A stretch of DNA of 64,000 nucleotides, taken from contig OV121088.1 in NCBI GenBank assembly GCA_921293015.1, positions 16,281,645-16,345,644 on the forward strand. The letters run 5' to 3'. A model generated the notes under the pieces. The model was given only the letters and a program-made list of their open reading frames with translations. It made no database searches and was not told the DNA's origin. The position numbers were made by a program, and so were the translations under genes. Of the stretch, positions 1 to 40,880 are shown piece after piece. How positions within the stretch are numbered: position 1 is the first letter of the stretch; each line of letters starts with the position of its first letter. This DNA comes from Phorcus lineatus (Eukaryota > Mollusca > Gastropoda > Trochida > Trochidae).

Positions 1-2044
1 CCCTGACAACCCATTCGTACGTGTAAACTTGTCCGGGAGGAACTCCGTCATCCAGTTTGTCGGCGGGCCCTGTATTGTCTTCGTACAGAGCACCTACAGA
101 TATGTTTTGGAAGATTTATTAACTTGAATCAAATTAGGATAGGTTTCTAATTACACTTATGAAAAATGTTAAATATAATGTTATCATTAAGAGAAACACA
201 AATTACCAAAAATACTGACATTAATTTTGTGTATTTTATAAGTTATTAATTGTCTACGCTTACTCGTACTAGAAAATTTTTCTCTGAAATACTAAAATCT
301 TGCGACAGTTAAATTAAGACTATTACTAGTTCTCCTCGGTACCGTTACAAAAATAACAATGATACATACCTTCAGCATTCTTCAAGTAAAAGACGCCGTG
401 GGGATGAACAGTGAATGACTGGTTACACTTAAAGGCCAGGTTAGCAAAAACGATCAGGATTGTGTCGTCCACCTCGGCTCTGAAAACTGGTCCCAGATAG
501 CCAAGCCAATCTGGTCGTGGAGCTTGATGGAGGAAACTTCGGTCCGTGTACTCCCTGTACACTACTTTATCGTATTTACTGCCAATATGGTCTGGTCCAG
601 ACTTGATGTATACATCAGCGCCCCTAAAACATAATAAAACAAAAGGTAAAAATCAATGTTAATATATTAAGGGGAAATACGTTAATAGTGTTTTACTTTT
701 TGTATTGACATTTGATCGGTTTGTCAATGAATGAATAGATATTTTAGCGTTAGATACAGAAATCTCACGAAATGATAAGGACATTCATTCATGAAAAGGA
801 TTGGGCCCAAGTTATCCAAATTAGAAAAACCCTTTCCAGATATTTACAGCGGTAATCTTGCAACAAGGGACGTGTATGCACAAGAGAGAACCTCTTTTTG
901 TGTGAAAGATAAAAATATTGACATATTTGAAAACAATTTTGTTTCCGAAAATAGTGCATTGTCATGAAAGATAAGATTAACACTAATTCTAACTCTGTTT
1001 CTGACAACGTTTTCTAGAGATTTAAATATTTTTGTTTTCTGTATGAAATATCAGGGACTTTAAAGGATAACAATTTTCTGTTTCATCATTTCTATCATTA
1101 ATTCTGAATAGATTATTAGTGAGTGAGCTCGTCATGATAAACCATTCTCACGTATGTGAAAGGGGAGGGACACTTTCAAATGTTTTTTAAAAAAAACCAA
1201 AGTAGCAAATCACATACTGAAATTCTTTCAACATAAACATTAAAATCACAAATTGAAAAATCCTTAATGTCATTTCGTTTATATCCAGGCAGTATACAAC
1301 CAATATTTACTGAATCACATCCTATCGATCCACTTAACATGCATTTGTAGAAAATAACGGGCATAAAAAAAACATTAGTCAATTAGTCAAACATATTTTT
1401 GCTTGGGAATCACATTCAAAGCTGACAGAAGGAGAGTTTGGAGTAGATAGTGTTTAATAGGTTATAAACCTAACTTGTATATATAAATAATGGATGTAAC
1501 ACTAGGTTTTTGCAAATAGATCAAGCTGTTGTAAATTCGAGTTACTACCTTTATTAACAGTATAAGTTAATTTTAAACTACAGGAATGTAAGAATCTTGC
1601 ATTTGAAATCTACAAAAGTTAGTTTTATACATAGTCTCTATGTTTCTCAGATTTGGCTTTGATGCGAAACTAATTACCAAATATGTAGTTACAGAAAACA
1701 TTCTCAGTGTGCCATATGTCATTCGTGATTCAACAATTCACTGAGTAGCTCTTTAACAAATACTCGTAACGTTAGCATACACCTACTGGAAATAATGTTA
1801 GCAGTTCATCGACCCTTCTTCATCTTGTTTCCAAATTAAAAAATTGGTAATGTTTTAAGTTAATGATTACTTACGGATCATTATTAACGAGGTTACCATT
1901 CGGGGCATAGTCCCATTCCGTATCAACAGCAGCAATGTATATCACACGAGTTCTTCCAAACGACTGTGCTTTATGAAAAGCGTGTCCACTCACGTTCCAA
2001 AACTGTATTACAAAGAGGAAAGACAATAGTATTTTTGATGACAT
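1..2044 (-). CDS. Hephaestin/ceruloplasmin-like multicopper oxidase, copy A (5' part; runs off window)
   Basis: Secreted multicopper oxidase of the ceruloplasmin/hephaestin family; the family oxidises substrates at a type 1 copper and reduces oxygen at a trinuclear copper cluster. Three exons are visible: exon 1 at 2044-1875 (ATG at 2044, hydrophobic signal peptide of about 20 residues, then [20 protein letters not shown]), exon 2 at 623-370 and exon 3 from 93 to beyond base 1. Splice phases agree (CC|G, then GAA G|GT). Exon 2 carries the HPHG motif, a trinuclear-copper histidine pair of domain 1, after [13 protein letters not shown]. The remaining domains lie outside the window, so intactness is unknown. 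It lies head to tail downstream of copy B. Exons 2 and 3 match copy B at roughly 97% and 93% of bases by eye, yet the introns do not align. Whether it encodes a ferroxidase cannot be told from this part. Confidence 0.9.
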
Positions 2045-7442: not shown

Positions 7443-10400
7443 TTATTTAATTTGTTTATACGTTGAAATGTGATTAAAGTCAAAAGGAACATGTACATGT
7501 CCGGTGAAACGATGGAATGCGTTATTGGTCGGTACAATGGTATACACAGCCTCCATTCCGTTTGTCACGTGAAAGCTGACATGACAATGGAATAGCCATG
7601 TTCCTGGATTATCTGTAAACATCTCAACAGTCTCGCTAGTTGAGGGGAAAATATCAATGACATCCTTTCGATGTCTCTTATCCGTCCTGTGAATAACCGT
7701 CTGCCCGTGGAAGTGAACAGGATGGACATCAAAGACAGACCCAGCTCCCAACACGTACCAAGCGACTCGTTCTCCCTCGGTCATTATCAAACCTCGAACA
7801 TTTCCGTAAATTAGACCGTTGATGGAATATTTTCTGTTGGCAAGCACAAAATCAGGGTCGGTATAATTAACTCTGCCTGGGGCCAAAGATGCTGCATTTT
7901 CTGCAAAGTAGTGACTCTCGTTTTCATCAAAGGTTTTGAAAAGAACGGCAAATTCCCTGTTGATATTGTCAGTACGCTGTCCATGGGCGTCCAATATACC
8001 ACTTCGACAAATAACTAAAGGTCCGATGAGTCCACTGTCAATATCTTTAGCTAGGTTCACGGAAGAATGGTACATCCGACCAATGCAATTTGGATCATTT
8101 TTGCCAGGGCCAGATCGTTTTGGTACCTCCCATTCATAGAGGTACGTCCCTCCAGGAGCGACGGAGTTGTCGCCCTTATAATTGTTCTCATCTTTATAGT
8201 CAGCCCCTTCGTTTGCTTTAGTATAGAACAGAGACTGTGGAAGAATTGAATATGGTATAGAAGCCTTGTTCCGGAACAGAACATGTACAATGTCCCCTAC
8301 TTCTGCCCGTATGAAAGGACCAAGTAATCCCAGATGTTCGTCCTTAAATGCTCGAGGTACTTGTCTGGCGAAAGAAGCATCTGTATATTGACGGTAAACA
8401 GCTTTCTTGTATTTGGCTCCAATGAAGTTCGGTCCATCTCTAACGAAGGTGTAGCCAGGTCTAAAAATGAAAATACAGCCTTTGTATTATGCTTTATTTT
8501 TGTACAGTGCCCGTGAAACAAGATGATTAAATTAGTTGCATCTGATAAAAAGTATTGTAAACGTATTTGAGATTAGTTTCTTTAGGACGAAATGGTAAAA
8601 ATATTAAGCTGTTGGATAAAGCGTATTCAAGACAACCACGTGAATTATTTGAAGAAACTTAGTATATACGGTGACTCGATGGAGTAAGATGGCCATTGGT
8701 AGATGATCGTATATACATGTAGCATGAGATGGATATGCCTATAAGTTAATATAAAAGAAAGTGAAAATTGATCACCATCAGAGTCAGTCAATATTGCCGG
8801 AATGACTGTACCAGTCTTTGACAAAATGGGCGAGTTGGTCCCACAAAGGGACGATTGGGTACGATTGAAGGTGGTGTGATCCCAAGTATAACAATGTTAC
8901 ATTTGTTCACTATCTAAATGACATGCCTCTCTAAAGGATATACATTTGTACTTCACATGTCAGATGATGTGATAAAATAAAACGTTATTTGTTTTGAAGA
9001 GTGAATAAAATAAATCAGGCCGTTTACAATTATTATGCGTAACAAAAAGCTCTCTAAAGCTCTCTAACAGTTTCTAACGATCGACAACAACGTCACAGTA
9101 AATTGCCCGAGGGCGTCTTCTTGGTGTTCTGCATTTATCAGTGGGAAAAACGTGATTGATAAAGATTGAAGTTAGAGGATTCTTCATATAGCTTGTGAGC
9201 CGGTGAGTAAATGAAACGGTTGCAGCAAACAGGGACACTTACTGTGACGGATCAGTTAGGTTTCCACCTGTGACCAGGTCAATCAAGACAGGTGCGTAGT
9301 CCCAGATCACCTCCTCTGCTGCGATGAAATATCGACGTATGTGACGTCGACCTTGACCTATCTGATGCCGTGCACCACAGGAGAAGACGTCGTATAATGC
9401 CGTCATTCCTCTACTGTAGAAAAAACTCGTTTGACAGTGCACAGACCACCGACCTACATAGACGTAAAAAAAGCATCATAGATTTTCAAAACAAATACAA
9501 TGCAGGCATGTTTCCATACGTTAAGTTGAAATTGTTTGGTAAATACGGTCGAGTGTATCCGAAACTTTTCCTGTTCGAAACGCATTTAAGGTGCTAATCG
9601 TTCACACGGAATTAAGAATTTGACGATATCTTGATCATCAACTTTCATTAAATGGATCATCCACATTCTGATTTCTGACTTGACTAATTGAAGATTTATG
9701 TATGTAAGCAAATTTTTTCGTTGTTGTCAAATAACCATGACGTACAAGTAGATTTGGTGCCCAACTTAGTTTTTATAGGTATTTATGATCATCCTTGGAT
9801 GAACAGAAAATATATCATCATTCTAGAATTGTTATGTTGTTATGTGGCACATGTTTGTTTAACCTCTAATGGTACATGTCGAGAAGGCGGCAACAATATA
9901 AGGTATCGGATTACGGATTCCTTTCCAAGCTAGACATCGCTAAGGACGATGTCGAATAACCATGCAATGAATTCAGTAATCTTCAGTATGAAATGTGACT
10001 TTTAAAAAGCCTTTAATATGTGAATTCACTTCATGTGCTGATCGGTAAATCAGTTTTGAAATTGTGCTCTTTGACATTAAATATTGCTTGTATTTGGACC
10101 AACTCACCAACAGTGTCTGGTGTAGAGTGGAGAGTCGCTCCAATCCCCGGATTGATGAGCTTTCCTTCAACGTTATTTCCGTGAAATTCTAACGCTTGGC
10201 CGTTAAAAACTACCCCGTGAGTATCACGTAAGGATCCAAGTCCGAAAATATGCCAAGTGATGTGATCTCCTACACACATATCTAATCCGGGCAGATTACC
10301 GAATAAGTATCCGTTGATTCCTGTAAATTGAGAAATGTAATTAACACGCACTAAATCAAATGTAAACAAATGCCAAAGTCATATGACTGAAATAAAGCGC

Positions 10401-13400
10401 TATTTACGTCTCGGGTAATTTAATAAAATCTAATTTCGCCCTTAAACGAATGTGTATAAGAGATCGTTTGACTTCTAGTAACAACTATTGTCTAATGTCT
10501 TCAGATAGAATCTTAAAATATTTCGAAGATGAAATTGGGAATAACCAAAGCGTGCCAGTATGTTCATAATCAATTATCAAAACACAATGATCATAATATC
10601 TTACTATAGAATGAACAATGAAGTGAAGAAACTAAGACAACATTGAAGCATTAATTATCAAATGAGATGTTTTGGAAACTATAATGCCTTTTCATTCAAA
10701 TAACAACTGCACCGACATGTTACTCAGGATAAAACACTACTTGTCACACATTGACTTAGGATTTGGTATTCTAAAAACAGCGATTTAATGGAAACAGTCA
10801 TGGATGAACATATGACTCAATTAATCGACAAGAGAGTCCCGATATATCCCGAGCGAGGGCGAGTGTTGTAAATCGACACTTTGTTAATGTCATAACAATG
10901 CCGGGTCTAGATTTTCGTAGCTCTCTAAGCGCTAAGATAGTCGTAGGCCAATGGTAATTCATGGTACTTACGACTGTCTTATTTAAAAGAGAGCTTCGAA
11001 AATCAAGGCCCAGACCTTCAAAGAATTAAGCAACATATTTTAATGAGTCCATCTCCCCTACCCTCCCAGGGAAAGTTGCTTTTAATGTACATACTTTAAA
11101 CTACTATTCATATCCTAAAACTAAAGCTTAAATAGAGTTGTACAATAAAGCGACGTACCGTACATGGTATTTGATTCAACGAAGGTTGTATCGGTCTTAA
11201 CAACACTGTTTGGGTCAGTAGTAAACTTCTGTATGTTTTCATCGATGTACCAGGATTCATTTTCATTCGTTGTCATAAATAGTAAGTAGAAAACACGGGA
11301 CGCCACATCTCTGATTCTCCAGTGCTTTGGCGTGTTCTGCAAAGGATGTCAAATATGCTCAATTAAAAGATTTTTTTTAAATTCACAAATCATTGTTTTG
11401 TTTTAATTTCCAGGCAAAACGATTACTTTATATTATTTCATATCTAAGGAGCAGGTAAATTTTTCATAAGAAATATGTTCAGGAGACTTCAATATTGTAT
11501 AATATATGGGCACCTGTCAGGATTACAAAGACAACTGAACCTAGCAATGATGTAACGTGATAGTCATGCAAACATTCTAAATTTATCTTCAAAAAGTTAG
11601 CGGTAGCCATATATACTGAACACAAACTAACTTGCATAAAAACATCGTTAAAAGTGTTTAAAATTCAAATGCCAAAAATGCTTTCCTAAGAACCTTTAAA
11701 TCAAGAACCTGTATTTTTGGGGATACCAAGAGTTGTTAACGATTTGAATGAACTTAAACAACGCAAATCAGTTAATGAAAAGCTTTAATCCTATACCGGT
11801 ATACGACAATATCTAATTAAGAGTAATATTTGTTATTAAGATATCACATATGATCTAGATAACGATGTTATATAATAGGCATGTGTAGCTACGATCGCGA
11901 TGACAACGGTAAAATTTCTCAAAGGATGACGCGCCATCTATAGAACGATTTATTCTTGGTAACTAATTAACATAAACTCAAGGGACAACTTATGCTTATA
12001 AGTACTGTCACACGGTTCGTCACTAAAAATTTAGAATTCAATTTTAGCTGCGATACGATGAAGTCGTCTCAATTTATAGACAATGCACATACAAAACATG
12101 CCGTAAAGTGTTGTTACAAATTGCGCATTGTGATCCATCCTCAATTACCTAGAAAATACTTTCCGATAAATATCCAATAAAATCCCTGGTCAGTTCTCGG
12201 ATTTACTTCTTACTTTTGAGAAACCACCTATCCCGATAACTCATGACAGCAACAATTCAGAAAAGTCTTTACAACCATGTTCCCTGCTGGAGTTAGTTAA
12301 TTTTAAGCGGCAGACATGAGTTATGACAGGAATCATTTCATTGGTACGCTGAACTTCCATCGTAGATACCTGATTGGCTTTAAAAACACCATGCAAGGTT
12401 ATTTATGATATACACAACAAATCTACTTTTTGAATCAAGGGTATAAGTTAGGATTTATTTGAACTAATAAACCTTTAAAGCTGTCGTTCTGTTGTGTTTA
12501 AATGTAATTTTATCTTCTAGTTTCCGTCTCTGAGATAAGGAATTCTTCAAGTGATGCCCCTGCGCGGCAGGTTATTTTGGGGGAAAATCTCTTTGGATAA
12601 CTATATTATTTTCCTGATGTGTCAAAGTTTTTAACTCTGACTATGATAACTTTTCATTTTCAATTTGAATTGCGTTAGTGACTTGCACTAACACCCATAC
12701 TTCATACTCCTAGTCATATTCTACTTTCTCAAAACCACTACATCACAGCGGCTGATCTGAAAGATGATAGAACATGGATAGACCATAACCCGTGGGCATT
12801 ATAATGATTAAGGGATATATGCCCTCACGATTTGCTCGTAGTCAAATTCAGTAGCCAAACATGATTTTGTTCTAACGATGTATCGTCCTGTTACATCCAT
12901 AATGTATGCCTTAAGATGATTGTAATCGAGTTTTCAGTACACCAACCTCAGTGGACCAATCATAGGAATGTCCCTTCTTGCAGATAACGAGAGGACCAAT
13001 GAGCCCGGTGTACACGTCTTTGACAGGGTTGACAGCAGAGTGATATGTGTAGGTGAGGCACGGCTCATCATCTTTGGTGGGGGACGCGCTCTCCCCAACC
13101 CGGTATCTGTAGATCACTGTCTCACCTGGTCGGGCGAATTTTCCTGTTTTCTGCTTAGCTGGGGAAATAAAAAGTCCTTTTACTTAGAGAAGCCATCACT
13201 AAAATAAGAATGTGCACAACAAGATTTTATTATCAGTGATAAACTTCATAAGATTGCTAGATTTCAAAGGACACCACGTTCTACCGCAGTTTGCTAGAAG
13301 TTTGGCACAGAAATTATGGAGATACCCCAGGGCTTGAATAGACCAAGAATGAAAACATTGAAACATTGAAATTCCTAAGTCATAGTTTAATCAAGGGTCA

Positions 13401-16400
13401 TTCATATTCTGATTTAAGGTATATTGCATTCATTTGAGACTCACTGATGGGATCGTCAGTAACGAAACCTTCTTCTTCTTTTGGGAACACCAGTCCGTGC
13501 ACATAGACTGAGTAGTCCCGATCAGCATTGTTTCTGAACACGATCTCGATTGTGTCTCCGACTTCTGCTTTAATAGGAGGACCGAGATATCCAAGATGTG
13601 CCTTAGTGGTGGAAAAAAGAACAAGAGTAAGAAAAACCCTCCTGATAAATCAGCGTATTTGCACCAGCGAAGCTCCTGCAAATGCTATCTATGAAGACAA
13701 ATTGACATTTTCAAATCATTGAATATAGATGTCAATCACAATGGTCATACCCAGTTGGTAGTCATGGTTTAAATGTCATGAAGTACGTGTGCATGTACTG
13801 TGTTAAACAAGTTTTACCGTGCGTTTTCTTATAAGAAATTAAGAACAACATCTAATATTAGCAATAGGAGAGATAATCTGCTTCAATGCTCTGATTATAA
13901 ACCTAATCAGTAAAACCCAGTAGTAATATCGTCATTTTCTTAACATCCTATCATAAACACGCAACGTTGAACCTTCAATTCCGTTTTGGAAGGTTCTGCA
14001 GAAGAATTTCTCATTGTTACTTACATCCTCAGGTCCTCTTGGCTTCCTTTGAGTAAAAGAAGCATCAGTATACTCGATGTATAATGCTTTTATATATTTC
14101 CCACCAATCCTGTTAGGTCCAGAACCAAAGTAAAATGCCGATGAGCTGGAAATTTGGCGAAAAAAGCAGTAAGTTTATATGATAAAAAATATCTACACTC
14201 ATAGCTATGTTTATTGTATATTTCTATTATTTATTTCTTTCAAAGAACTTTCTATTGAGAGGAACGACTGAGCTTGTGGACTTCATTGCTTGTTGAAATA
14301 GCTAAATGCGGATAAGAACAAGGATCACATGTTCCCATGTACAAGCGATTTTTTTTTCAATTATGAATGACAAAATGATATCAAATGTTTAAAGACGTAC
14401 ACTCTTAATTCTGGATAACTCAGATAATGCCTTGATCTATTTGATACATTTAACTTAATCTTAAAGTACAGATAGTATTATTAAGACACTGCACATTGCT
14501 AAAATAATATGGGCGATCGACCTACACTAAGCGCAACATCTAAGAGCCATTTGGGAGTTTCAACACCTTTTTTTCTCACATTAATACCGCAAGTGTTTTT
14601 TGCAAATTGACTTTGGATTATTTAGTGGAGTTCCCATACTCGAAAATCAAGATAAACGTTCAAATGACACAATCATCAAGTAGCGAACATGGATTATGAT
14701 TATTAGTGGAGAATTGCCGGAACGTTTACCCTGGAATATCGAGGATGCTGCGTTCCATGCCTTGTTTATGAAAGAATGAATTGTCATTTGTAATCACGGC
14801 CCCTTGGCCTAAGTTAAATAATCATGTATTAATATAGTCAATGCCCATGGACATTGAAATGATTTTTTTACATGGGTAAATTTCGTTCTGGATAAATTGC
14901 AAGATTTTTTAAGCATTCAACTTTCTGTAAAGACATTAGCAAATTAACTTTCCCGTGTTGGATAGGTATGAAAATAGCTTGGTAACAAAAAATGTTCTAC
15001 TTTCAATGTAATATGGAGAGACTAACAAAAAGTGAAATTTGTCTCGGCTAACGTCATACTTACATTTTGTCAACTTAAAAAAATCAGTATTTACATTTTT
15101 ATCGTATCGAAATTGATGTATATTAAGTTTATGGATCATACATAAATTTACACAGAGTTCGTAGTAGGTCTCTATTTGAATTTAGTTTCAAGATGTAAAG
15201 CTCCGGTTCCAAATTTACTCATGTAAGAGCAATAGTTATGCAAATAAGATGATGAACACAATTTACTATGCCATATTTGATATTGAATATAATCACATCG
15301 TTGTCTAAAGCGTGGTTTATTCTGTTACCGAAGTTCACTTTTCATCACGTTTTCACTAAAAGCTATGTACTTCTCTAAGCATGATTAAGTATAATTCAAT
15401 TCAATGGAAGCGTTAGTAAAATATCACGAAATGACTTTTACACGTAAATGATTGTGTCCTGGTTCTTATTCTCGTTTCTTACTGAAAGGATATAAAATAA
15501 CATATTTCGAAACGTGTATGTATTTCCAAAATATTTATCAGATGAATTATCAAAATAATGAGAGAGATTATAATGATAAGAAGTTTTTATCAGGGTGTCC
15601 GCCTTAAGGTATCATTTTAAGAACAATGCTATACAAATACATCTTACTAGACGCCAACCACTTAACGCTTTTAACTTCGTGCTACTCTGTACTTCTTGAT
15701 GTTGAAAAATACAATTGATTCCTACTAAACCTCCTGTCATCCATCGGTACAACACGTCCAAAATATGGCCGTGAGATCTTATAGTTCCATTAATCAAAAT
15801 TGATTGTAAATCTTCTTTAATCAATTTCATCTGAGCACATATTCTTATTAGAACAACGAAAGTGGGTAGTTAACAAATCTTATGTTAAGAAATCTATTAA
15901 CATGGGTACATGAAATAGGTGATGTCAAAGGCATTTTGATTACATCATGCCTTTCGTTACTTTGAATGGACCAAAACAAATTTGTCAATGCCAATGCTCT
16001 ATGAACGCCGAAAGACCGTTTGGGATCATCTAGGTGTTTTTACATTGATATTATAATTTAATATTTCGACTACACCCTGCCTTTTTCTAACATCAAGGGA
16101 TTCAACTAATAACTTAAAAGTTTATTTTGAGTTAGTCGCTTTTCATTTTAAAATTGGTTTATACAAACATTCTAGCATATACGTATTATTTTATGTTTTA
16201 AAGACACATATGATCAATTTTGGCATGTTCTTTAAGACAAAGAAACGTTTTAATATATTTTACACATTTTATATATTCACAGATTTAGGCTTAAGGCATC
16301 CAAAGGCCTCTGATTTTTCTTTGCTTTATATCTTTATATATAAATACTTTATAAATCAATTGATAATGAAGTTAGAAGTAAAAACACTCCATTTTCAATG

Positions 16401-19400
16401 GCGAGAGCTTTCAGCTCAACGAGCCTCTTCGAGCCATAAATAAGCTGATATGGAAGCGCTAGCCATTAAAAATGGAGTGTTTTTATTCCAAACTTCATAT
16501 TTATGAATATCTAATAACTGGGGATATACAACAATCTCTCGACAGTTTCCTCACTCGAATGAAAAATTGTGACACCCTTTAAAAGAAAATTCGTTCGATC
16601 CAAGGTGTTGTCCGCTTAGAACGAGTGCTCTGCTTTGAAAAGAAATCGTAAAATATAACACACACCTGTTCGGCTCGAGTAGTGATCCACCATTATACGC
16701 GTTTTTGCCAGATGGGCCATAATCCCATTCGACCTTTTCGGCTGCAATATAGTATCGTCGCAGTCTCCCTGTGCGGTGATAAATGTGGTTTACGCTGTGT
16801 ATGGAGTTGAAGTAGTAGCTATTCCTTCTTGCGGGCAAGACATGTAGGAACGCTTGTTGACCACCTGGGAAATAGAGAGATTAATATTTGATGAATTTAA
16901 GAGACACCCCTTGAATTGTATGAGTCACATGTACCAAACGTTAACAATTATGTCTTTCTATCGACTACTGTTGGTGAAAACTTCCATTATGATACTCATC
17001 GGTTCATTAGTAACAATGTTGATCAGGACAATGTGCCACATATTCTCCCCGGAGCTCATGGCATAAAGTCCTACACTGATCTCTGTTCTAATAAGAGCAC
17101 TTCTTGGACTTACGACAAGTTTCCCTAGCGGGAATATTTTGGAACACCAACTATCTATGAATATTTCAGCCAACAAATCTTATCCCACATGGAAGGCTTG
17201 TTTGTTGTTATTTAGGCCATTCACTTTACCGTTTTTTCTCAAGAAGACACGAGGTGTGAAGTGCACAGTCACATGAATATAATCTCGCTCTCTCGAAGCA
17301 TGCAGAAATGGCTGAGGCGTTTCAAAAGTTTACCTTTAAAGGACGTCGCTGATTGCAGAACTAACATAAATTGCACCCAATAAGACTTCTTCATTTCTGG
17401 CCCGTGAAGAGCTCTTATCAGAATAGAGGTTAGGGCAGGATTTTGTGACTTGAGTTTCCTCTGAGAGAATGAGTCAACCGCGGCGTGCGCGCCAGTAAGT
17501 CAAACTTCTTTTGACTTCTGAACATGTACACAAGGCCGTTGAGCGAGTATCAAATATTTCGCAAAGGAGGACAGTCTAATTTAAATCGATCGTGTTTCGA
17601 GGAATAGTTATGTGTCAACATTTGAACTTAAACCAGCCCTTATTGTATTTTGGCACTTAAAGAAAATCAAAATATATTTTAGTTGGATAAATTATGTCTT
17701 AAGTTAATTTTATGTTACTGCCCATGTCAAGCAATGTGAAAGTTGAAAGTTATAATTCCTAGGATATTTGCTGTTTTAATGAAGTGGGTGTTTGTCAGGT
17801 CAAATGTAAACGTATCTATATTCCGCTGATTTCAAAACGAATTATATCTACACTTTAAGTACACTCTTTAGTGAGTCAAACGAATTCTCACCAGTTTGAA
17901 AACTTCGAAAGGTAATGATATATAGAGATTATTACCCGAGGAAGTGTGTCATATGACTTTTACGAAACGAGTGTGAATTTTTGTATTACCCGAGCGAGAG
18001 CGAGGGTTATACACAAATTCACACGAGTTTCGTAAAAGTCATATGACACACTTCCGAGGGTTATAATTTCTTTATTACCGATTCTATTTCATTTTAAACA
18101 CACGGAATGCGGCCTGCTTCCTTTCCGGCGGCCCGCTACAGTGACATCAAGAACAATGGTTTTATGACGTCACAGGCGAGGTAATACGGTAACTCGCTCT
18201 GAAACAATCGTTGCTAGGCAAAAGTGATATGTGCACATGTGCTCATATTGAAAATATGTTACCGCTTATGATTAACCATATGGGTAATAAAAATTGTTAC
18301 GTACCATCAAACCAATTTGCAATCCGGGAAGCCAGCAGCCATCTGCCTGGATATTCAGCAATCATAAGCGCTGATCTTACGTGTCCCTGCCAGAAGTTGA
18401 TGGTGTCCATTCTAAGAACAATAAGTTACATATTCAAAAAAGTATCATTATCCTCAGCATTAAAGGGGCACAGAGTATGTTGTTGGATTCGAAAAATTAA
18501 TAGATGGTTTTATGTTATCGAGAGGTAGTGGTTGTTTCAGAAAATCGGAAGCATAATACTTATTATCTCTGTATAGTGACAATAAATGGGTTAAAGTCGT
18601 GATTTGTGGTCGAAAACCGGACAGTTTGACTCAAACTCAAGTAAGTAATTTTACTAATAAACACGTTACTTCCACATAGAAGTTCGATTTTTTAACATTT
18701 AAAGGACCGTGTTCCGATTATGATTGAAAACAAGAAAATATCATAAGTTTGGCATTATAGACATAAATATGCGAATTGAGGGAGTCGATTTTAACTACAC
18801 ACAGTTCATAAGGTATTTTGACTCTTACAAAAGCCACATTAAATATCATGAAACATACTCTGTGTCACGTTAAGGAAGTTGAAAAGGGTAAGACATCACC
18901 GCCGCATGCACATCCGCGATGCAGTGCTTTTATACTTCTTACAAAAAGATAGGCACAAAATAATAATATTTGAATAAACATGTCGCTTAGTCATGTCCGT
19001 CGAGGGAAAAGAATCGAGTAACGTTTACATTTATACAGAAACCAAGGACGTTCACCAAAAATATAATGACATTTTCTAAATACAATTATTTATCGGAAAG
19101 CCATTAAAAATGGTATTCTTTAAATTATATAAATATGTAATTTGCCACGCACCTGTGATTGTTTTCTAGAAGTGTCTGGCCATTGATATGGGCTGCCAGG
19201 ATGAACTCATGAAGGGAGAAAAAATGAAAGACGACCTTTTCTCCAGCGTGAACAACCAACCCAGGAAGGTTACCGTAGATGTAGCCGTTGATATGATATA
19301 CATTGTTAGAGAAACTGAAAGCGGCATCCCCTGTTTGAAGAAGTTCCTGACACGCAGTTACATTCTGACATTTCTGAAGGCTAGACTCGATACACCAGCC

Positions 19401-22400
19401 TTCCTGCTCATTCATGATATCTTGGTAGATGACAAATTCTTTATCAACGTCTCTTCGTCGCCCCTTATCGTCTAGTACACCTAAAAATAAAAACAGGTAT
19501 TTTCATAAACATTTATTTCGCTCTGATTCGCTGAAATAAATTTTGAAAAGATTTAAGTTAATAACACTCGAGTTGCAGTTCGAAGTTAACACTTGTCAGT
19601 AATACCCGGATATTATAGTGTCATGACCATCAGTGTATGTTTATATCCTTTTCTTCAGTAACTTATTCCTCAAAGATACAAGGAATGAGGCCTAGGTCGT
19701 CCCCGCAAGGCATGAATAGCAAGTCTGAATTTCATTCATTGATAAATCTAAGCCTATCTTCATTTCCAATCTTTCGTTGCCTGGTATTCAATATAATGCC
19801 CTTTAATTTGTTATTCAAATCAGAAATCTTTTTGAGTAAACTTATAATTGCCCTCAAACAATTTCACAGCAATGCAGCAAGGCTTGAGTTAACCAGGGAT
19901 AAAGACTGGGCCGAGGTTTGCTTGCTAGGCGAAGTTGTCTTAATACGATTTGTAAGACGACTCTTGTTTGTTCAAGGAATTTATTTTCATTGGCTTGAAA
20001 CATTTAGTTCTAAGATGACAAATTAGCGTCCTTTACTAAAACAATACATCAATTGAAAAAATATGATGACGTCACAATTCCATACCTTTTTTACATGTAA
20101 AGAACATCCCTACAAGTCCCGTAACGATATCCTTTGGAGATTTCCGATGCGAATGGTAGGCCCATCCAAGACAATCTTCGTCATCGGCAGTAGGAGCAAA
20201 TGTTTCCCTGACAACCCATTCGTATGCGTAAACTTGTCCGGGAGGAACTCCGTCATCCAGTTTGTCGGCGGGACCGGTATTGTCTTCGTACAAGGCACCT
20301 ACAAATATGAACTCGTAGACTCGGTGATTTATATCAATTCACAATTATCTTAATATTTGGATTGTTTGTTTAATTTTATTTGGATTTGGTAACTTTCAGG
20401 GGAAAGTTCTTTGGTTTATTTCATGAGGATTTGGATTTGGTTACGTTCATGAGAAAATGTTCTATATACTTTATGATGAGTTCTCATGTTCATAACAACC
20501 ACAAATAGGTTCCTGCTTTTGTGTATTGTATAATACTTTACGTGTTCATATCCATATCTGAGATGTTCTGTAACACTAAAAGATCTTCGACTTTCAAACT
20601 TGACCTTCACTCCGATATATTTCTGTGGAATAATTACCTCAAGAATTGTTAGTTGTCCTATCCACTTACTTAGTTTAATCTTTGACGAATAATTTGATAT
20701 TGATTTGATCATTACCAATAACATTGATTTCCATCACGAAAACAGCATGTTTTGATATACTTCTTTCCGTATTGATACATTAAACTCACTATAGCACACC
20801 CTTTGTTCGTTTTATGGACTTACGCGTATATTACGGTCATCTTTAATGATATAATCTATCAGCCTCAAAGTACTCTTTCTTACGGTTCATTTGGATTATC
20901 ATTAAGCGGACTTTCCGTTTTTGTCACTCTTTGCCTATTTCCTCAAAGGGACTATCAGAGGTTTTAGTTTATACTCTTCATGGCCAGGAAATTGCCGAAA
21001 TAACATGTTTTGCTATGAATTAGATACAATTTCATATTCATTAAAGACTCCTAAATAGATGTACATTAAAATTTTTAAAAAAAATGTAAATCGAAAGGCG
21101 GCTACTGAAGTCACGCGTCACAATTACATGAACAATTGTTACAGAATCTCCAAACCTACGACCACTATATGTTTCTCATACAACATTTTGCTTTCATATT
21201 TTAAACTTAAGATGAATAGATATTCATCCATTTTACATAGAAATGTTTTAAGCTGAAAATCAAGTGTACATTTGTAAATGAAAAGTTCACACACTTCAAC
21301 TCAAGGAAATTCAACTCAATTTATTAGGGTAATTTTTCATATTAACTCATATTGTCTGTGGAATGTAGTGCCAAGGTGTGCAACTTTTTGATGTTACTAT
21401 GTTTTCACAACCAATAAGGTGCATATTTTACTTTGAGTAAAAATCATTACTTTTGAGTTACACTGAATGTATCAGTAATTGTGAAAAGGCTTGTGCTAAA
21501 TTGGTCTAAACCTTTTGCCACTTTTATGTCTTTCGCTCGAGAATAAATCATAATATTTAAGATATACATCGTTCTAATATTTTCTATATGCAACATATGT
21601 ATATATTTACATATAAATATAAAGTATCCTATATATTCCTCGTAGTGTATTCAACATGTCAAATGCGCGTATTTACGTACCTTCGGCATTCTTCAAGTAA
21701 AATACGCCGTGGGGATGAACAGTGAATGACTGGTTACACTTAAAGGCCAGGTTAGCAAAAACGATCAGGATTGTGTCGTCCACCTCGGCTCTGAAAACTG
21801 GTCCCAGATAGCCAAGCCAATCAGGTCGTGGCGCTTGATGGAGGAAACTTCGGTCCGTGTACTCCCTGTACACTACTTTATCGTATTTACTGCCAATACG
21901 GTCTGGTCCAGACTTGATGAATACATCAGCGCCACTAAAACATACGCAAATAGGTAAATTCTAATGTCATAGTTTATAGGGTATGGGATGAAATCTTAGT
22001 GCTGACATAGTTTTCATACGTACACATGAGCACATATCACTTTTGACTAGCAGCGATTTTTGTACCACGAAATACCGTCTATGACATCATAAAACAATTG
22101 TTCGTGATGCTACTGTAACGGACCGTCGCAGGAGAATGGATCTGTTTCCCAGCGATTCAAATGGATAAGATTCTAATGGATCAATAAATAAACACTTAGA
22201 GTTCTGCATGAAGTATACAATCTGTACAATTTGATCCATATATTCTTATTCCCTCCACTTTTAACACATGCTTATGCAATATCCGTTTTAATCGGAGATT
22301 CATTTCGAATACAAAACTACTCTAAATGATAATGAATCTTTGAAGCAAAACAAGCATGTGTAAATTGTTTTATTTGTTAAGCGGAGTCGACATTTCCTTA

Positions 22401-23763
22401 TTCGAAGAGCAGAGGAACTACTAACGCCAACGGTAATCAAGATTTCCAACACCAAAATCGAGTTAACATCTCGAAAATAGCTTTTCAGTTCCTTATCACG
22501 ATTACGATTGTTTATATTACGAATCCATATCAACTGTATGTCTTATTCTCTAATTACTTTATCTAACAGACGTGTATGTCTTGCCTAATTGCTCTTGAAT
22601 TAATAAATGCAGTTTGCAAAGTTGAAAACATTGAAGTTACGCTTAAGTTATTTAGCTACGGAATTTATCGCTGAAAAGTATACGAGGATATGATATTCTA
22701 ATGACACGAAACTAATGAAATCCAGCGAGCGCCTAGCTTAAAGAGACTCTCCCCAAAATGCTGGAGTCATATGCATGTATAGCAAACTGTGACTGTACAG
22801 GCTGTGTCTGAAAAGTATCATTATAAAGCAAATCGCTTTAGTACAGTGACAATAGTATACAGTTATAACGTCGCAATCTTTATTGCAAAACGTGATTTTA
22901 CTGAAAGTTGTCAACTTAGTTTTAACTCGCAAAGTGAAAATAACGTAGACATGTTAAAAGTCCGAAAGTAGTCAATGAATCATCTCTCTACAAAACGACG
23001 GGCCAGTTGAGCATGAATTGATGTTATTTAGTCAAGAGAGCATGGAAAAACTAAAATATTTAAATTACTAATATATTGCGATACGCATATGCAATATGCC
23101 TCTCTGTATCGCAATATATTGCTATACGGAAATGTGGAGCGATACCATTCTTACAAAACAATGTAAGATAAAAACGTAAAACGAACCATGCTTAAAGGAC
23201 TATTTACATGTCAAAATGTACAGAATAAAATTCAAGTAATAAAATAAACACATAAGAACATAGTAAGTGTAAAGATGAATTCGTCATTCCCCAAAACATC
23301 AAAGCAAGTCTTGACTGTTAATTTACAAAGCAAAGGACTAAACCTCATGAAAGAAAACTTTAAAATTATATTAAATGAAGAAAGATACTACGTAGAATAA
23401 GACTTGTCTCTATTAAACAAGAGACGTACATGAAGGGAAAGTTAACAGTACGCGTATTCCATCTTCAATAACATGTCTCGATTGAACCACACTCTTTCAT
23501 CATAATGCATATTCAGCGCCCAAATATTATCATCTCCTGAGGGAAAACACTGCACGAAATTTGTTATTTGCCAATGTGGTAGTGGTTACTTACGGATCAT
23601 TATTAACGAGGTTTCCATTCGGGGCATAGTCCCATTCCGTATCAACAGCAGCAATGTATATTACACGAGTTCTCCCAAACGACTGTGCTTTTTTAAATGG
23701 ATGTCCACACACATTCCAAAACTGTATTACAAAGAGGAAAGATAATAATATCTTAGATGACAT
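7443..23763 (-). CDS. Hephaestin/ceruloplasmin-like multicopper oxidase, copy B (13 exons, 1126 aa)
   Basis: Complete secreted six-domain multicopper oxidase. Exons: 23763-23594, 21934-21681, 20298-20086, 19480-19153, 18411-18305, 16864-16666, 14145-14025, 13601-13445, 13158-12947, 11336-11159, 10320-10108, 9453-9243, 8460-7443. All introns are GT..AG, phases agree and the total is 3381 bp. Residues 1-20 are a signal peptide. There is no C-terminal membrane segment, so it resembles secreted ceruloplasmin more than hephaestin. Trinuclear ligands are present: H130/H132 (HPHG), H190/H192 (YHSH), H1037/H1039 (HPVHFHG) and H1079/H1081 (HCH). The domain-6 type 1 site is complete: H1034, C1080, H1085, M1090. 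Type 1 sites of domain 2 (L307, S350, W355) and domain 4 (F729 for His) are broken. Proposed ferroxidase residues are mostly replaced (L994, Y999, F1084, V1030). The last 1018-bp exon holds domains 5-6 without introns. The fold call is secure; the substrate is not known. Confidence 0.93.
10903..11013. mobile_element. Palindromic MITE in intron 10 of copy B
   Basis: A nearly self-complementary element of about 110 bp. The left arm reads GGGTCTAGATTTTCGTAGCT and the right arm, reverse complemented, reads GGGCCTTGATTTTCGAAGCT. Further pairing includes GCTAAGATAGTCGTA with TACGACTGTCTT. A second copy of the same family is at 56214-56324. Confidence 0.75.
16369..16500. mobile_element. Stem-loop MITE in intron 6 of copy B
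   Basis: The terminal arms of about 34 bp are complementary with few mismatches. The left arm contains AAAAACACTCCATTTTCAATGG and the right arm CCATTAAAAATGGAGTGTTTTT. The interior is about 60 bp. No target-site duplication is certain. It lies between exon 7 (14145) and exon 6 (16666). Confidence 0.75.
17081..17428. mobile_element. TIR element in intron 5 of copy B
   Basis: The left end CTCTGTTCTAATAAGAGC matches the reverse complement of the right end, CTCTATTCTGATAAGAGC. Interior blocks (CTAGCGGGA, ATATTTCAGCCA, CGTCGCTGATTGCA) recur in the element at 33892-34302, so the two are related although their tips differ. No coding capacity is seen. Confidence 0.6.
17931..18294. mobile_element. 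Hairpin-headed dispersed repeat next to exon 5 of copy B
   Basis: A long inverted repeat opens the element. ACCCGAGGAAGTGTGTCATA through GAAACGAGTGTGAATTT (to about 17980) pairs with AAATTCACACGAGTTTCGTA through ACACACTTCCGAGGGTTAT (to about 18063). The following 230 bp, with CAATCGTTGCTAGGCAAAAG and GCACATGTGCTCATATTG, also occur at 50680-51004 and, inverted and diverged, at 22018-22135. The element ends about 10 bp from the exon 5 donor at 18304. Confidence 0.75.
18460..18873. mobile_element. TTAA-flanked TIR element in intron 4 of copy B
   Basis: Begins TTAAAGGGGCACAGAGTATG and ends with sequence whose reverse complement is TTAACGTGACACAGAGTATG. TTAA stands at both tips. Interior GGTCGAAAACCGGAC relates it to the elements at 35215-35687 and 43481-43950 (CCGGTTTTCGATCA). 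The TTAA target resembles piggyBac-type insertion, but there is no transposase to confirm this. Confidence 0.65.
22018..22135. repeat. Inverted, diverged fragment of the same dispersed repeat, in intron 1 of copy B
   Basis: The reverse complement contains AATCGCTGCTAGTCAAAAGT and GATATGTGCTCATGTG, matching the tail of the 17931-18294 family. Flanking sequence is unrelated. Confidence 0.55.
23070..23120. repeat. Perfect 15-bp inverted repeat in intron 1 of copy B
   Basis: AATATATTGCGATAC at 23070-23084 faces GTATCGCAATATATT at 23106-23120, with a 21-base loop. It may be a remnant of a small palindromic element. Confidence 0.65.
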
Positions 23764-30212: not shown

Positions 30213-33200
30213 ATGAAACTCAAACCGTTGTGTATAGTCACCTTTTCTGCTTTAGTGACTTTGATACTATCAGCAGAATCAAAACCCAAGGCAAGACCAA
30301 AACACAAGGACCCTTTTGGTGGATTCGATTTTTCTCTACCGACTTTCGAACATACTTTCAATGGAATAGACAAAAAAACAGGTTCGGGAAGTCCAAACAA
30401 CGCATTTCTATCAAACCTTAAAAAGCAACAACCAAAGCCACTTACTCCAGGTTACTTACCTAACAACAATTACCTTCCTTTACAAACCGGCTTTAGATCA
30501 TTTCCTGATCCGGACTTTAAATCGCTTTATGATCCCAAGAACTTTCAGCCTAAACAACAAGCCAAACCTCCGCATAAACCTCATCATCAAGTTCCAAACC
30601 AACCCAGTAGCCATGGGAATTCTTACGTGCCTGTAAACACAGGTAATAACCCTGGGGGCACATACCATCAGGGCAACACAGGACATGTCCTACAACCTTC
30701 TAGTCGTCAACCTGTTTATACTTACCAGCCAGGCAATACAGGAAACAATTACCACCCAACAAACCAAAATGTTTACCAGCCAGGCAATACCGGAAAAACC
30801 TACCAACCAACCAACACAAATTTTCAGGCGACTGGAAATACAGGAAACGCTTACCAACCAACTAACACAAATATTCACCGACCAGGCAGTACAGGAAACA
30901 CCTACCAACCAACCGATCCACACGTTTATCAGGACGGAAATATAGGAAACAATTACCATCCGCCAAGGTCAAATGGTCAGCATCCGAGTAGCACAGTTTA
31001 CCAACCAACCAACTCAAATATCTACCAGCCAGCTGACAGGAACGTTCACAAACCAAGCAATGTCTACAGGCCAAACAGCATCCAACCGGGAAATGGCTAC
31101 AGGCCGACTGAAACAAATGCCTATGACCCAACCAACACAAACCAAAACAATCAGCCAGGAAATGCCTACCAGCCAACAAACAAGGATGTTCAGCCACATA
31201 GCAATGCCTACCAGCCAACCTATACAAATTCCAATCAGCCGATAAATACAAACAATCAGGCAGCAAACACAAATTCGAATCAGCCAGCAAACACAAACAC
31301 CTATCAGCCAACCAACAAAAATACCTTTCAACCGACAAACACTAACAATCAACCAGGAAACGCTTATCAGCCATTCAAGAAGGATACCTATCAGCCAACA
31401 AACCCATACGGTAACCAGCCTAACACTGTGTATCAACCAGTAAACCATCAAACATCTAGCAACGCGTATGGACACTATCCCGGTGATGCAGCAAATGATC
31501 ATCAGCCAGTTGACAACAAAAATGTATACAAACAACCTTACATCGGGAATACAAATCAACCAACATTACCAAGAAACGGCTACAACCCAGCAAACACAAA
31601 TGCTCAAATTCCAGGAAATACAGCAAAACCCTACCAACCAGACAATGCAGCAAACGCCTATCATCCAGGCAATGTAGCAAATACCTACCATCAAGACAAT
31701 GCAGCAAACGCCTATCATCCAGGCAATGCAGCAAACGCCTATCATCCAGGCAATGCAGCAAATACCTACCAACCAGGCAATGCAGCAAATACCTACCAAC
31801 CAGGCAATGCAGCAAATACCTACCAACCAGGCAATGCAGCAAATACCTACCAACCAGGCAATGCAGCAAATACCTACCAACCAGGCAATGCAGCAAATAC
31901 CTACCAACCAGGCAATGCAGCAAATACCTACCAACCAGGCAATGCAGCAAATACCTACCAACCAGGCAATGCAGCAAATACCTACCAACCAGGCAATGCA
32001 GCAAATACCTATCATCCAGGCAATGCAGCAAACGCCTACCACCCAGGCAATGCAGCAAACGCCTACCATCCAGCCAATGCAGCAAACACCTACAAGCCAG
32101 GCAATACAGCAAACACATACCAACCAGGTAATGCAGCAAACACCTATCATCCAGGCAATGCAGCAAACGCCTACCACCCAGGCAATGCAGCAAACGCCTA
32201 CCATCCAGCCAATGCAGCAAACACATACCAACGAGGCAATGCAGCAAACACATACCAACGAGGCAATGCAGCAAACACATACCAACCAGGCAATTCAGCA
32301 AACACATACCAACCAGGCAATGCAGCAAATACCTACCAACCAGTGAATACAGGAGCCGCATACAGACCCGCTAACAATGGTTATCAGCCAGCACGTATCG
32401 GCAATACTGGCACTGTTAATAAACCAGCAAAGAGCAGCCGTCCACAGCATACGAACGTTCCTGCACATTCCAACCCCAACACAGGATTCGATGGTTCTCA
32501 ATATTACCCTTTCAAATCAGTACCTACTTACAATCCTCCTCAGGCCGGTAGTATTGGGCGACTTCTCCCAGGATTTAATCACCCAACTCACAAACACCAC
32601 GCCCCTCGACCAGACAACGGACACAATCACGGTGGAGAACATCCTGGAAGCACACCGTATGCAAATGCAGCGCCTCACACACACCATACAGCAAACAATA
32701 ATCACGAACAACCAAAAGATTCCCAAAACTACCAACAACCAAATCATGAACGAAAGTATCAGCCGCCAAAAAGTCCACAAAATTATCAGCCTGCCCACAA
32801 ACCGTTCGTGCCTGTTAGTACCAATCACCAGGACCCCGAAGAAAAGAAGTTCAGCCAGAATGCACACAAAGTTTTCGACCAGAATGACCATATAAGTCCT
32901 TTCAACAGCGATAGCTATCTTAGTGATTTGAAACCATCCCATGGAGGGGGGTTGAACCTGCCTTCAGCTTCAAACCTGAACGTCAACCGTCGACACTATG
33001 CTCCCAATCCTGTATATCCAAAAGGCAGTGGTAACATCAACAGGGGAAATGCTCATGACCCTAGAAATCCCAAGGTCATCTATGAATCCCACAATCTGTA
33101 TCCCACAACAAGGCAGCCTGTCATTCTTTCAAAGTATCGCCCTGGTAGATCTCATTTCAACCACAACTCTGCTCCAAACCCAGCACCGGTCGGTTATCCC

Positions 33201-33779
33201 TCTCACAATGTCCAAACGCCGAATACAAAAAGCAGTTCTCCAGCACATCCAGCTGGGTATCCTTCAAATCCCCAACAGCCGCATACCAACAGTGCATTTC
33301 CAGCATACAACGTTGCCAAGACAGCATACCCTGCTTTAAGTGCAGTATCCAAACCGGTTCAAGTTGGAGACCCTTCTCATAGAAGTATTCCCGCCTATAA
33401 CACTCCACCACAACACATAGCAAAAGCTCAACCAGTGTCTCCACAGTCTGGTTACCCTGTAAAGAATGATTCTCCGAAACATGATGGTAAGGCCTATCCG
33501 ACCAAGAAAATTACTACTGAGCCTGCGTATCCAGCTTACTTGCCTGCACAGAAACCAGCAGCAAATCCCTATCCCCAGGAAAAACATCAGACCAGCGACC
33601 CTTACTACCCTGTCAACACTAAAAAGAGTGGCAGCTTCTACCCACAAGAACCAAGTAATTCCAACAGTCAGAGTACATCGAAGACAAACCAGAATGCAAA
33701 TGACATATATCCTCGTAGCCCATCCACGGGACAGAAAGATATTGCTTTGAATTCCATCATCGGCAGTAACATTCCTTAG
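30213..33779 (+). CDS. Secreted Asn/Pro/Gln/Tyr-rich repeat protein (1188 aa)
   Basis: Not a family I can name. A single coding exon; the start is chosen because residues 1-21 form a clear signal peptide (KLKPLCIVTFSALVTLILSA) and a TTTCCAG acceptor ends at 30197. The mature chain shows no Cys, Trp or Met. Layout: about 24-165 basic, Pro/Gln-rich; about 168-475 degenerate YQPTNTN and YQPGNTGN motifs; 477-710, 26 tandem 9-residue units of consensus GNAANTYQP, one Tyr each; 790-831 His-rich (11 His in 42 residues, THKHH and HTHH); about 950-1188 many YP motifs (AYPAYLP, PYPQE, YYPVN). Such proteins are typical of secreted matrices, adhesives and threads, where Tyr can be hydroxylated or cross-linked; here that is inference. 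It is divergent from copper oxidase copy B. A disordered extracellular matrix, byssus, shell or periostracum protein is likeliest. Confidence 0.88.
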   Translation: MKLKPLCIVTFSALVTLILSAESKPKARPKHKDPFGGFDFSLPTFEHTFNGIDKKTGSGSPNNAFLSNLKKQQPKPLTPGYLPNNNYLPLQTGFRSFPDPDFKSLYDPKNFQPKQQAKPPHKPHHQVPNQPSSHGNSYVPVNTGNNPGGTYHQGNTGHVLQPSSRQPVYTYQPGNTGNNYHPTNQNVYQPGNTGKTYQPTNTNFQATGNTGNAYQPTNTNIHRPGSTGNTYQPTDPHVYQDGNIGNNYHPPRSNGQHPSSTVYQPTNSNIYQPADRNVHKPSNVYRPNSIQPGNGYRPTETNAYDPTNTNQNNQPGNAYQPTNKDVQPHSNAYQPTYTNSNQPINTNNQAANTNSNQPANTNTYQPTNKNTFQPTNTNNQPGNAYQPFKKDTYQPTNPYGNQPNTVYQPVNHQTSSNAYGHYPGDAANDHQPVDNKNVYKQPYIGNTNQPTLPRNGYNPANTNAQIPGNTAKPYQPDNAANAYHPGNVANTYHQDNAANAYHPGNAANAYHPGNAANTYQPGNAANTYQPGNAANTYQPGNAANTYQPGNAANTYQPGNAANTYQPGNAANTYQPGNAANTYQPGNAANTYQPGNAANTYHPGNAANAYHPGNAANAYHPANAANTYKPGNTANTYQPGNAANTYHPGNAANAYHPGNAANAYHPANAANTYQRGNAANTYQRGNAANTYQPGNSANTYQPGNAANTYQPVNTGAAYRPANNGYQPARIGNTGTVNKPAKSSRPQHTNVPAHSNPNTGFDGSQYYPFKSVPTYNPPQAGSIGRLLPGFNHPTHKHHAPRPDNGHNHGGEHPGSTPYANAAPHTHHTANNNHEQPKDSQNYQQPNHERKYQPPKSPQNYQPAHKPFVPVSTNHQDPEEKKFSQNAHKVFDQNDHISPFNSDSYLSDLKPSHGGGLNLPSASNLNVNRRHYAPNPVYPKGSGNINRGNAHDPRNPKVIYESHNLYPTTRQPVILSKYRPGRSHFNHNSAPNPAPVGYPSHNVQTPNTKSSSPAHPAGYPSNPQQPHTNSAFPAYNVAKTAYPALSAVSKPVQVGDPSHRSIPAYNTPPQHIAKAQPVSPQSGYPVKNDSPKHDGKAYPTKKITTEPAYPAYLPAQKPAANPYPQEKHQTSDPYYPVNTKKSGSFYPQEPSNSNSQSTSKTNQNANDIYPRSPSTGQKDIALNSIIGSNIP
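31641..32342 (+). repeat. Coding 27-bp tandem array, 26 units
   Basis: 702 bp = 26 x 27 bp, consensus GGCAATGCAGCAAATACC then TACCAACCA (GNAANTYQP). Units 5-13 (31749-31991) appear identical at the base level. Units 14-17 and 19-22 form a higher-order repeat with the pattern TYHP, AYHP, AYHP, then an ANAAN unit. Array length probably varies between alleles. Confidence 0.92.
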
Positions 33780-38351: not shown

Positions 38352-38707
38352 TCTTTTCCTTTCAAAATGTTGCGTGGACATGTACTTATAGAGCAAGAAA
38401 TTGTCTTTAAAATCCTACATTGTACTAATTTTTTCCTTTCAGCAGAAAAAGATTCACAGTCTGGCGGGTATCTCTTATTTTTACTCGCCCGTGTATGATA
38501 CTGCAGTGTTATATCTATTCGGCGACATGTATCTTTTCCTTTCAAAATGTTGCGTGGACATGTACTTATAGAGCAAGAAATTTTCTTTAAAATCCTACAT
38601 TGTACTAATTTTTTCCTTTCAGCAGAAAAAGATTCACAGTCTGGCGGGTATCTCTTATTTTTACTCGCCTGTGTATGATACTGCAGTGTTATATCTATTC
38701 GGCGACA
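38352..38707. repeat. 180-bp tandem duplication
   Basis: Two near-identical units offset by 180 bp, each starting CTTTTCCTTTCAAAATGTTG and ending CTATTCGGCGACAT. Only a few substitutions are seen (for example TTGTC/TTTTC). It suggests a recent duplication and has no coding content. Confidence 0.9.
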
Positions 38708-39476
38708 TTAAATTAGTGTAATACCGCTGCACGTATGACGTCACAATACTGAGTGGTTGTGACGTCACAATGTTAGCACCGCCGTCACAATCACGGCCAA
38801 GTCGCGGAAATGTTTGGTTCAGTCAAATTTCGGCAATCATGCTTCATTACTTAGGTCAAGTAATAAACAGAATACTAAACTTCCTTCAATTTAATGCTAT
38901 TTGTATTAACCTCGTTAATGATTTGGTATCAAACTCACTTTCGTTCGTTTTTTAATTCATCATAAAATACGTTAAATAAAAATAGTATCTCAGTCGTAAA
39001 AAGAGTTGGATCTCTGATGAATCCCTTAGAAATGACTCTGCCAATTTGGGTCAGACCCAAGGGATTTTTGTCATTTCGTAGTTGTTCATCATAAATAGAT
39101 TGCCAGACAAATTTCTAATAAGCTTCATCAAGAGAATAATAGGAAGTATTGGTACAGCTGGAAGTCTATGATAGGAGATTGGTTGGTCATTAATACTGGT
39201 CAAATAGGTATATTAACACGAAGGTAATAGAATGAGACAACATTTGAAGACAACAGAACATTTTTCCTAGGCATGTTGTCTTTGTATATGATAACATTTA
39301 TTAATAATCATGTACAGACAATGGGAGAGATTAGAAAAACAATATTTCTTAATAAAAGTCTTTATTGGGAAATCACAACGTTTCCAATCACGCTTTATTG
39401 ATTTCCCCACTCAAGTATATTCGGACTTTCTTTTTTGATACAAATTCCCACGAATTCTCTACAAATCTCTACAAAC

Positions 39477-40699: not shown

Positions 40700-40880
40700 T
40701 CAACACAGACTGTCAACGATCCATTCCCTATCAACACATTCATTCACTACCCTATTCAACCAATGGCTGATGGAAGTAATCAAGGATGGGCACTATTCAT
40801 TTTCCTTTGACATTGCAATGCAGTAATAAATCAATTTGCGAGATCTTTTAACAGTCATTGTTCCCTAGACGCTTTGAAAA
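40700..40880. repeat. Dispersed repeat family R1, copy 1
   Basis: The segment beginning CACAGACTGTCAACGATC, with CATTCATTCACTACC and AGTAATCAAGGATGGGCA, has diverged relatives near 49715, 51870 and 54760. The R1 name is mine. No ends are defined. Confidence 0.55.

Follow-up and report, generated by a model that had tools for sequence, protein, structure and literature searches.

Loss of most iron-site residues with retention of the catalytic copper ligands in a tandem pair of hephaestin-like oxidase genes of Phorcus lineatus

In human ceruloplasmin, the iron ligands are E935, H940, D1025 and E272 in the domain-6 site, and E597, H602, D684 and E971 in the domain-4 site (PMC11817551, PMC3738974). 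Hephaestin, which has been modelled with E960, H965, D1050 and E300 in the domain-6 site (PMC11817551), and HEPHL1 (zyklopen) belong to the same family, and the names hephaestin and hephaestin-like have been given to invertebrate relatives. Invertebrate hephaestin-like proteins of coral, Lingula, Lymnaea, scallop, chiton and tubeworm lie in or are linked to extracellular matrices; they have been reported from the skeletons of corals, the shells or mantle of brachiopods and molluscs, the teeth of chitons and the tubes of tubeworms, and two studies give such matrix proteins an iron-oxidising or iron-trapping role. Further sources on these systems are PMC6351634, PMC7299971, PMC6534290, PMC6281612, PMC4595640, PMC8476170 and PMC4043741. 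Here, a stretch of 64,000 nucleotides from the gastropod Phorcus lineatus (contig OV121088.1, positions 16,281,645 to 16,345,644, hereafter the window) was analysed, which contains a six-domain copper oxidase gene of this family, termed copy B, and the beginning of its tandem copy A. Judging from its sequence, copy B probably encodes a secreted, catalytically competent six-domain oxidase in which the iron pocket has been largely replaced and whose substrate is probably organic.

Copy B shares with ceruloplasmin the six-domain layout, the trinuclear cluster between domains 1 and 6, the domain-6 type 1 (T1) copper site and the ligand spacings, but it keeps only one (or two) of the eight iron ligands, its domain-2 T1 site is absent and its domain-4 T1 site is broken. 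With hephaestin and HEPHL1 it has family and copper layout in common, whereas the C-terminal membrane tail of hephaestin was not found in A or B by hydropathy or by BLASTN of the downstream DNA. Coagulation factors V and VIII are six-domain relatives with strong sequence matches to copy B. These factors are not known to have a ferroxidase role and carry C-terminal C1/C2 domains. Unlike them, A and B keep the catalytic copper path, and no C-type domain was detected in B (Pfam, E 0.001); factor V has no copper sites, factor VIII has lost one, and both have extra regions (PMC3600357). Laccases, including laccase-like loci on contig C11 of the same genome, resemble A and B in that the second T1 His is preceded by a non-acidic residue, but laccases have three domains rather than six (at the C11 loci as judged by motif and frame length), and the likeness is one of analogy, not of membership.

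Copy B is a minus-strand gene running from the ATG at 23763 to the stop codon ending at 7443. The gene model consists of 13 exons, with all 12 introns GT-AG, consistent phases and no internal stop. The product of 1,126 residues starts with a hydrophobic, signal-like N-terminus (by hydropathy), from which secretion is predicted. A Pfam search of the whole protein (E 0.001) returned Cu-oxidase models only, and the best solved-structure matches were ceruloplasmin chains (HMMER). The six cupredoxin domains are collinear with those of the 1,046-residue human ceruloplasmin over 1,031 aligned positions, 425 of which are identical (MAFFT). Ligands were mapped with MAFFT against human ceruloplasmin and with HMMER against the solved ceruloplasmin chains.

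All eight trinuclear histidines (H101, H103, H161, H163, H978, H980, H1020 and H1022 in ceruloplasmin) are kept in copy B as H130, H132, H190, H192, H1037, H1039, H1079 and H1081, and the domain-6 T1 ligands H975, C1021, H1026 and M1031 are all present as H1034, C1080, H1085 and M1090. Both had been claimed in the initial annotation, together with spacings of 46, 43 and 43 residues between the ligands of domains 6, 2 and 4, and all of this was borne out by the MAFFT alignment with ceruloplasmin. Copy A has the same 12 ligands. Domain 6 holds the only whole T1 site of copy B: none of the four domain-2 ligands is kept (H276L, C319S, H324W, L329Q), and in domain 4 three of the four remain (H685F). 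The domain-2 site is also gone in copy A, whereas the domain-4 site of copy A is complete (4/4; C13:16268499-16268287 and 16267777-16267567), indicating that copy B probably lost its own after the duplication, and the two proteins may thus differ in copper content. Losses of the domain-2 or domain-4 T1 site have precedents in the six-domain family (PMC3600357).

At the iron sites, six of the eight ligand positions are clearly changed in copy B. In the domain-6 site, E935, H940 and D1025 are replaced by L994, Y999 and F1084 (MAFFT, HMMER), and in the domain-4 site H602, D684 and E971 are replaced by Y646, F728 and V1030 while E597 is kept as E641 (MAFFT). Copy A has F, Y and F at positions 935, 940 and 1025, and A, F, F and F at positions 597, 602, 684 and 971 (MAFFT). 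The iron pockets of both copies have thus become largely hydrophobic or aromatic, as read from the sequence. The loop at E272 is two residues shorter in both copies, so that the partner of E272 is ambiguous. Alignment to ceruloplasmin domain 2 gives F305 in copy B (HMMER, MAFFT), and depending on whether E304 serves instead, one or two of the eight positions are kept in copy B and none or one in copy A. The ceruloplasmin numbering of the initial annotation agrees with the published ligand list (PMC11817551, PMC3738974), and its mapping was supported at seven of the eight positions (MAFFT, HMMER); the exception was the assignment of E272 to H303, for which the alignments give F305 or E304.

To place these losses, the paralogs in the same genome were compared. 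A single Pfam Cu-oxidase_2 search of the genome gave 26 matches: eight on contig C13, namely A, B, C1-C4, D1 and D2, ten on C11, and four each on C32 and C37; further six-domain genes beyond the eight on C13 may exist. C1-C4, D1 and D2 form two further hephaestin-like gene clusters on C13 (9452374-9533487 and 181577-216396), in which some iron sites are complete and some are lost. These six genes were read exon by exon, with the E272 position and most domain-4 states assigned by eye. Three of the six (C4, D1 and D2) have E, H and D at positions 935, 940 and 1025 and E at 272. All eight ligands of both iron sites are retained in C4, while D1 and D2 keep the domain-6 site in full (4/4) and the domain-4 site not wholly. 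In C3, the residues at 935, 940 and 1025 are D, Y and E, with E at 272; in C1 they are N, H and S, with T at 272; in C2, positions 940 and 1025 are I and F, 272 is S, and 935 is a gap in MAFFT and Asp by motif spacing. Domain 6 of C4 and domain 6 of B have the same identity to ceruloplasmin (45%), yet the ligands at 935, 940 and 1025 are kept 3/3 in C4 and 0/3 in B. Since C4 is equally distant and has kept its iron site, the paralogs give meaning to the loss in copy B.

The trinuclear and T1 residues of domain 6 are the same in all eight genes compared. C4, D1 and D2 have Asp directly ahead of the second T1 His, where A and B have Phe, and the change from Asp to Phe was found in A, B and C2. 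At the C11 laccase-like loci, this residue is Leu or Met in seven of the eight retrieved (the motif was not found in the eighth), and five solved chains of laccases or ascorbate oxidases, out of 50 listed, have Y, P, R, W and W there. Eight of the ten C11 matches and four short stretches on C32 and C37 look laccase-like by motif, those on C11 being three-domain by motif and frame length. The C11 genes are mostly clustered, at about 9.46-9.52, 10.35 and 18.37-18.39 Mb, and in the eight retrieved the C-terminal domain lies in open frames of 223-703 residues.

The start of copy A falls within the window, where its exons 1-3 lie on the minus strand at 2044-1875, 623-370 and 93-1, the third being cut by the window edge (1..2044), and the gene runs on to C13:16266111. 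Read from the surrounding genome, it is intact, with 13 exons and a product of 1,124 residues that is 89.7% identical to that of copy B. Over 1,123 aligned codons, the synonymous divergence (dS) was 0.269 and the nonsynonymous divergence (dN) 0.055, giving a dN/dS of 0.20 (domain values 0.11-0.30), indicating that the pair is under purifying selection and that both genes have been kept as proteins. That the locus is a pseudogene or an assembly artefact is hardly credible: it is repeat-rich with tandem copies, as this explanation would expect, but both copies are intact 13-exon genes with matching splice phases, and in the window their first three exons are alike while the introns are not. A pseudogene was rejected on the intact frames of A and B together with the dN/dS of 0.20.

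For copy B, the predicted mechanism is that of an active oxidase which does not use iron, provided that the product folds and is loaded with copper in the tissue that expresses it. Substrate electrons would enter singly at the domain-6 T1 copper, the only whole one of copy B, and would travel through Cys1080 and His1079/His1081 to the trinuclear cluster, at which O2 would be reduced to water. With the domain-4 and domain-6 iron pockets largely hydrophobic or aromatic, the enzyme would no longer be a ferroxidase of the ceruloplasmin type. The likeliest electron donor would be a small organic molecule (a phenol, catechol or aromatic amine) or an extracellular matrix protein, oxidised in the manner of laccases, whose substrates include aromatic amines and phenols (PMC3738974). 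In ceruloplasmin, the binding site for biogenic amines is in domain 6 (PMC3738974). The suggestion of the initial annotation that the oxidase has left iron for another substrate is strengthened in its first half by the absence of the 935, 940 and 1025 ligands in both copies, by the dN/dS of 0.20 and by the domain-6 site kept in three of six paralogs; its second half, the other substrate, is suggested by the intact copper path and the hydrophobic or aromatic pocket. In the literature, which was covered in part, no report was found of an animal six-domain oxidase that has lost its iron site while its copper path stayed intact, a weak negative.

Several observations weigh against this interpretation. 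In the same HMMER output, alignment to domains 4 and 6 places E304 opposite the equivalent Glu (E633, E971), and an acid may thus be retained at the E272 position of copy B; E304 is identical in A and B. D989 and D991, near L994, are kept in both copies, and E641 still stands at the position of E597 in copy B. A structure model of the domain 5-6 exon, based on an alignment of pieces of the window, reached a mean predicted local distance difference test score (pLDDT) of 42, at which other acids could not be placed at the copy B iron site. Over the whole protein, 67 of the 143 acids of ceruloplasmin stay acidic in copy B, and the chance that five of the six iron acids were lost by divergence alone is about 0.14 by a hand estimate; since about half of the acids are lost anyway, the loss of four or five of six is not improbable, and single losses say little. 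The yeast ferroxidase Fet3 binds iron through a different acidic triad (E185, D283, D409). Considering E304, D989 and D991, E641 and the precedent of Fet3, copy B may have a weak or relocated ferroxidase activity. On the substrate side, other organic substrates of ceruloplasmin have been placed at domain 4, where the T1 site of copy B is broken, and adrenaline and dopamine were not oxidised by hephaestin (both PMC3738974); with these data, the laccase analogy for A and B is a loose one. Finally, A and B differ from each other at four of the eight iron positions compared with 116 of 1,123 positions overall (Fisher p 0.005), and the pocket may be merely relaxed; faster-varying iron positions fit a pocket that adapts to new substrates as well as one on which constraint is weaker.

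Among these points, E304 as a possible equivalent of E272 next to the two-residue deletion, the retained D989 and D991, and the Fet3 triad as a precedent for a relocated iron site speak for a protein that is still a ferroxidase or a cuprous oxidase, with iron near the domain-6 copper held by other residues. Cu(I) is oxidised by CueO, Fet3 and ceruloplasmin, and HEPHL1 could do the same. Nevertheless, in A and B position 940 is not a His and neither 935 nor 1025 is acidic, both pockets are now largely hydrophobic, and mutations in the ceruloplasmin sites lower ferroxidase activity (PMC11817551), and we therefore regard continued metal oxidation as unlikely, although it deserves some weight. Still less probable is a copper carrier or structural matrix protein without enzymatic activity, in which the copper sites would serve folding, storage or delivery while the pocket drifts. 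The excess of differences at the iron positions, the missing domain-2 T1 site of both copies, the broken domain-4 T1 site of B and the presence of hephaestin-like proteins in shells and skeletons are all in line with such a role, but the eight trinuclear histidines and the path from the T1 copper to the cluster have been kept in both copies at a dS of 0.27, and the constancy of the domain-6 copper residues across the eight genes also argues against it.

The history of the iron-site loss was approached with trees of the domain 5-6 region. C1-C4 were separated from A, B, D1, D2 and ceruloplasmin with a support of 99/99, and of 100/100 when three repeat rows were added; in this 12-row tree the other repeats of ceruloplasmin fall on the A/B/D side. 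Both trees were rooted at midpoint only, and the forks inside the group of A, B, D and ceruloplasmin are not fixed. A, B, D1 and D2 each have the domain 5-6 region in a single exon. In C1-C4 this region is split, as it also is in the vertebrate ceruloplasmin gene. The shared single exon suggests common descent of A and B with D1 and D2, which keep the domain-6 iron site. The simplest account we infer is an ancestor with an iron site, which was lost toward A and B after they parted from D1 and D2, and was apparently lost separately toward C1 and C2. A bolder extension, which we consider doubtful, is that a shift from ferroxidase to laccase-like function took place at least twice in one genome (A/B and C1/C2), yielding six-domain cross-linkers of secreted tyrosine-rich matrix proteins.

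Taken by sequence, A and B are variants within the known ceruloplasmin/hephaestin family, and a new substrate remains a prediction. The hephaestin-like genes of one animal comprise iron-site-keeping and iron-site-lost kinds with alike domain-6 copper machinery, and the name hephaestin-like alone therefore does not reveal the substrate; the kind to which a given hephaestin-like protein belongs would be predictable from eight positions. Having paralogs of both kinds, iron site kept and iron site lost, provides a natural experiment on substrate choice in six-domain copper oxidases.

The exons of copy B (all on the minus strand) are distributed over the domains as follows. Exon 1 (23594..23763) encodes the start codon, the signal-like segment and the first strand of domain 1, exon 2 (21681..21934) the trinuclear His pair HPH (H130, H132) and exon 3 (20086..20298) the pair HSH (H190, H192), both in domain 1. 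In domain 2, exon 4 (19153..19480) carries the loop opposite E272/H276, two residues shorter (SLHEFIL) and with the T1 His lost, and exon 5 (18305..18411) the C-terminal T1 loop with Cys and His lost (S350, W355). The end of domain 2 and the first strand of domain 3 lie in exon 6 (16666..16864), and domain 3 continues in exons 7 (14025..14145), 8 (13445..13601) and 9 (12947..13158); the donor of exon 9 was picked by frame, and an alternative donor six bases on would add two residues. Domain 4 comprises exon 10 (11159..11336), with E641 and Y646, exon 11 (10108..10320), with the T1 His H681, and exon 12 (9243..9453), with the T1 loop (an 11-residue motif with D684 to F728 and H685 to F729) and the start of domain 5. 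Exon 13 (7443..8460) covers domains 5-6 as a single exon without a membrane tail. It contains the codons of L994 (7842..7844) and Y999 (7827..7829), at the sites of the iron ligands E935 and H940; the motif HPVHFH (7707..7724), with the T1 His H1034 and the trinuclear H1037 and H1039, preceded by V1030; and the motif HCHVSFH (7569..7589), with the trinuclear H1079 and H1081, the T1 Cys1080, F1084 and the T1 His1085.

No transmembrane segment was detected by hydropathy near the C-terminus of copy B. A hydrophobic stretch past the stop (about 7341-7284) was considered as a membrane anchor and rejected, as no good acceptor into it was seen by eye, and BLASTN of the downstream DNA of A against that of B found nothing alike. 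Two imperfect palindromes, at 17920-18075 in an intron of copy B and at 63291-63410, are 83-87% self-complementary and are possibly small inverted-repeat elements.

Near the oxidase genes, an uninterrupted reading frame on the plus strand (30213-33779) encodes 1,188 residues with a signal-like start. Its composition is dominated by N, P, A, T, Q and Y (15.2, 13.5, 9.8, 8.0, 7.5 and 7.4%), with one Cys and no Trp, and a 27-base unit that reads NAANTYQPG is repeated in tandem about 27 times. By its sequence, the product resembles secreted proteins of fibrous, adhesive or matrix type, and it would be a possible member of the matrix proteins cross-linked in the doubtful scenario above. Ten of the larger neighbouring frames gave no Pfam match above the curated cut-off, and a 1,201-residue frame matched one Pfam model below it. 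Elsewhere in the window, two direct duplications lie side by side with 99% identity, at 39472-40078 and 40094-40700, and at 38352-38528 and 38532-38708.

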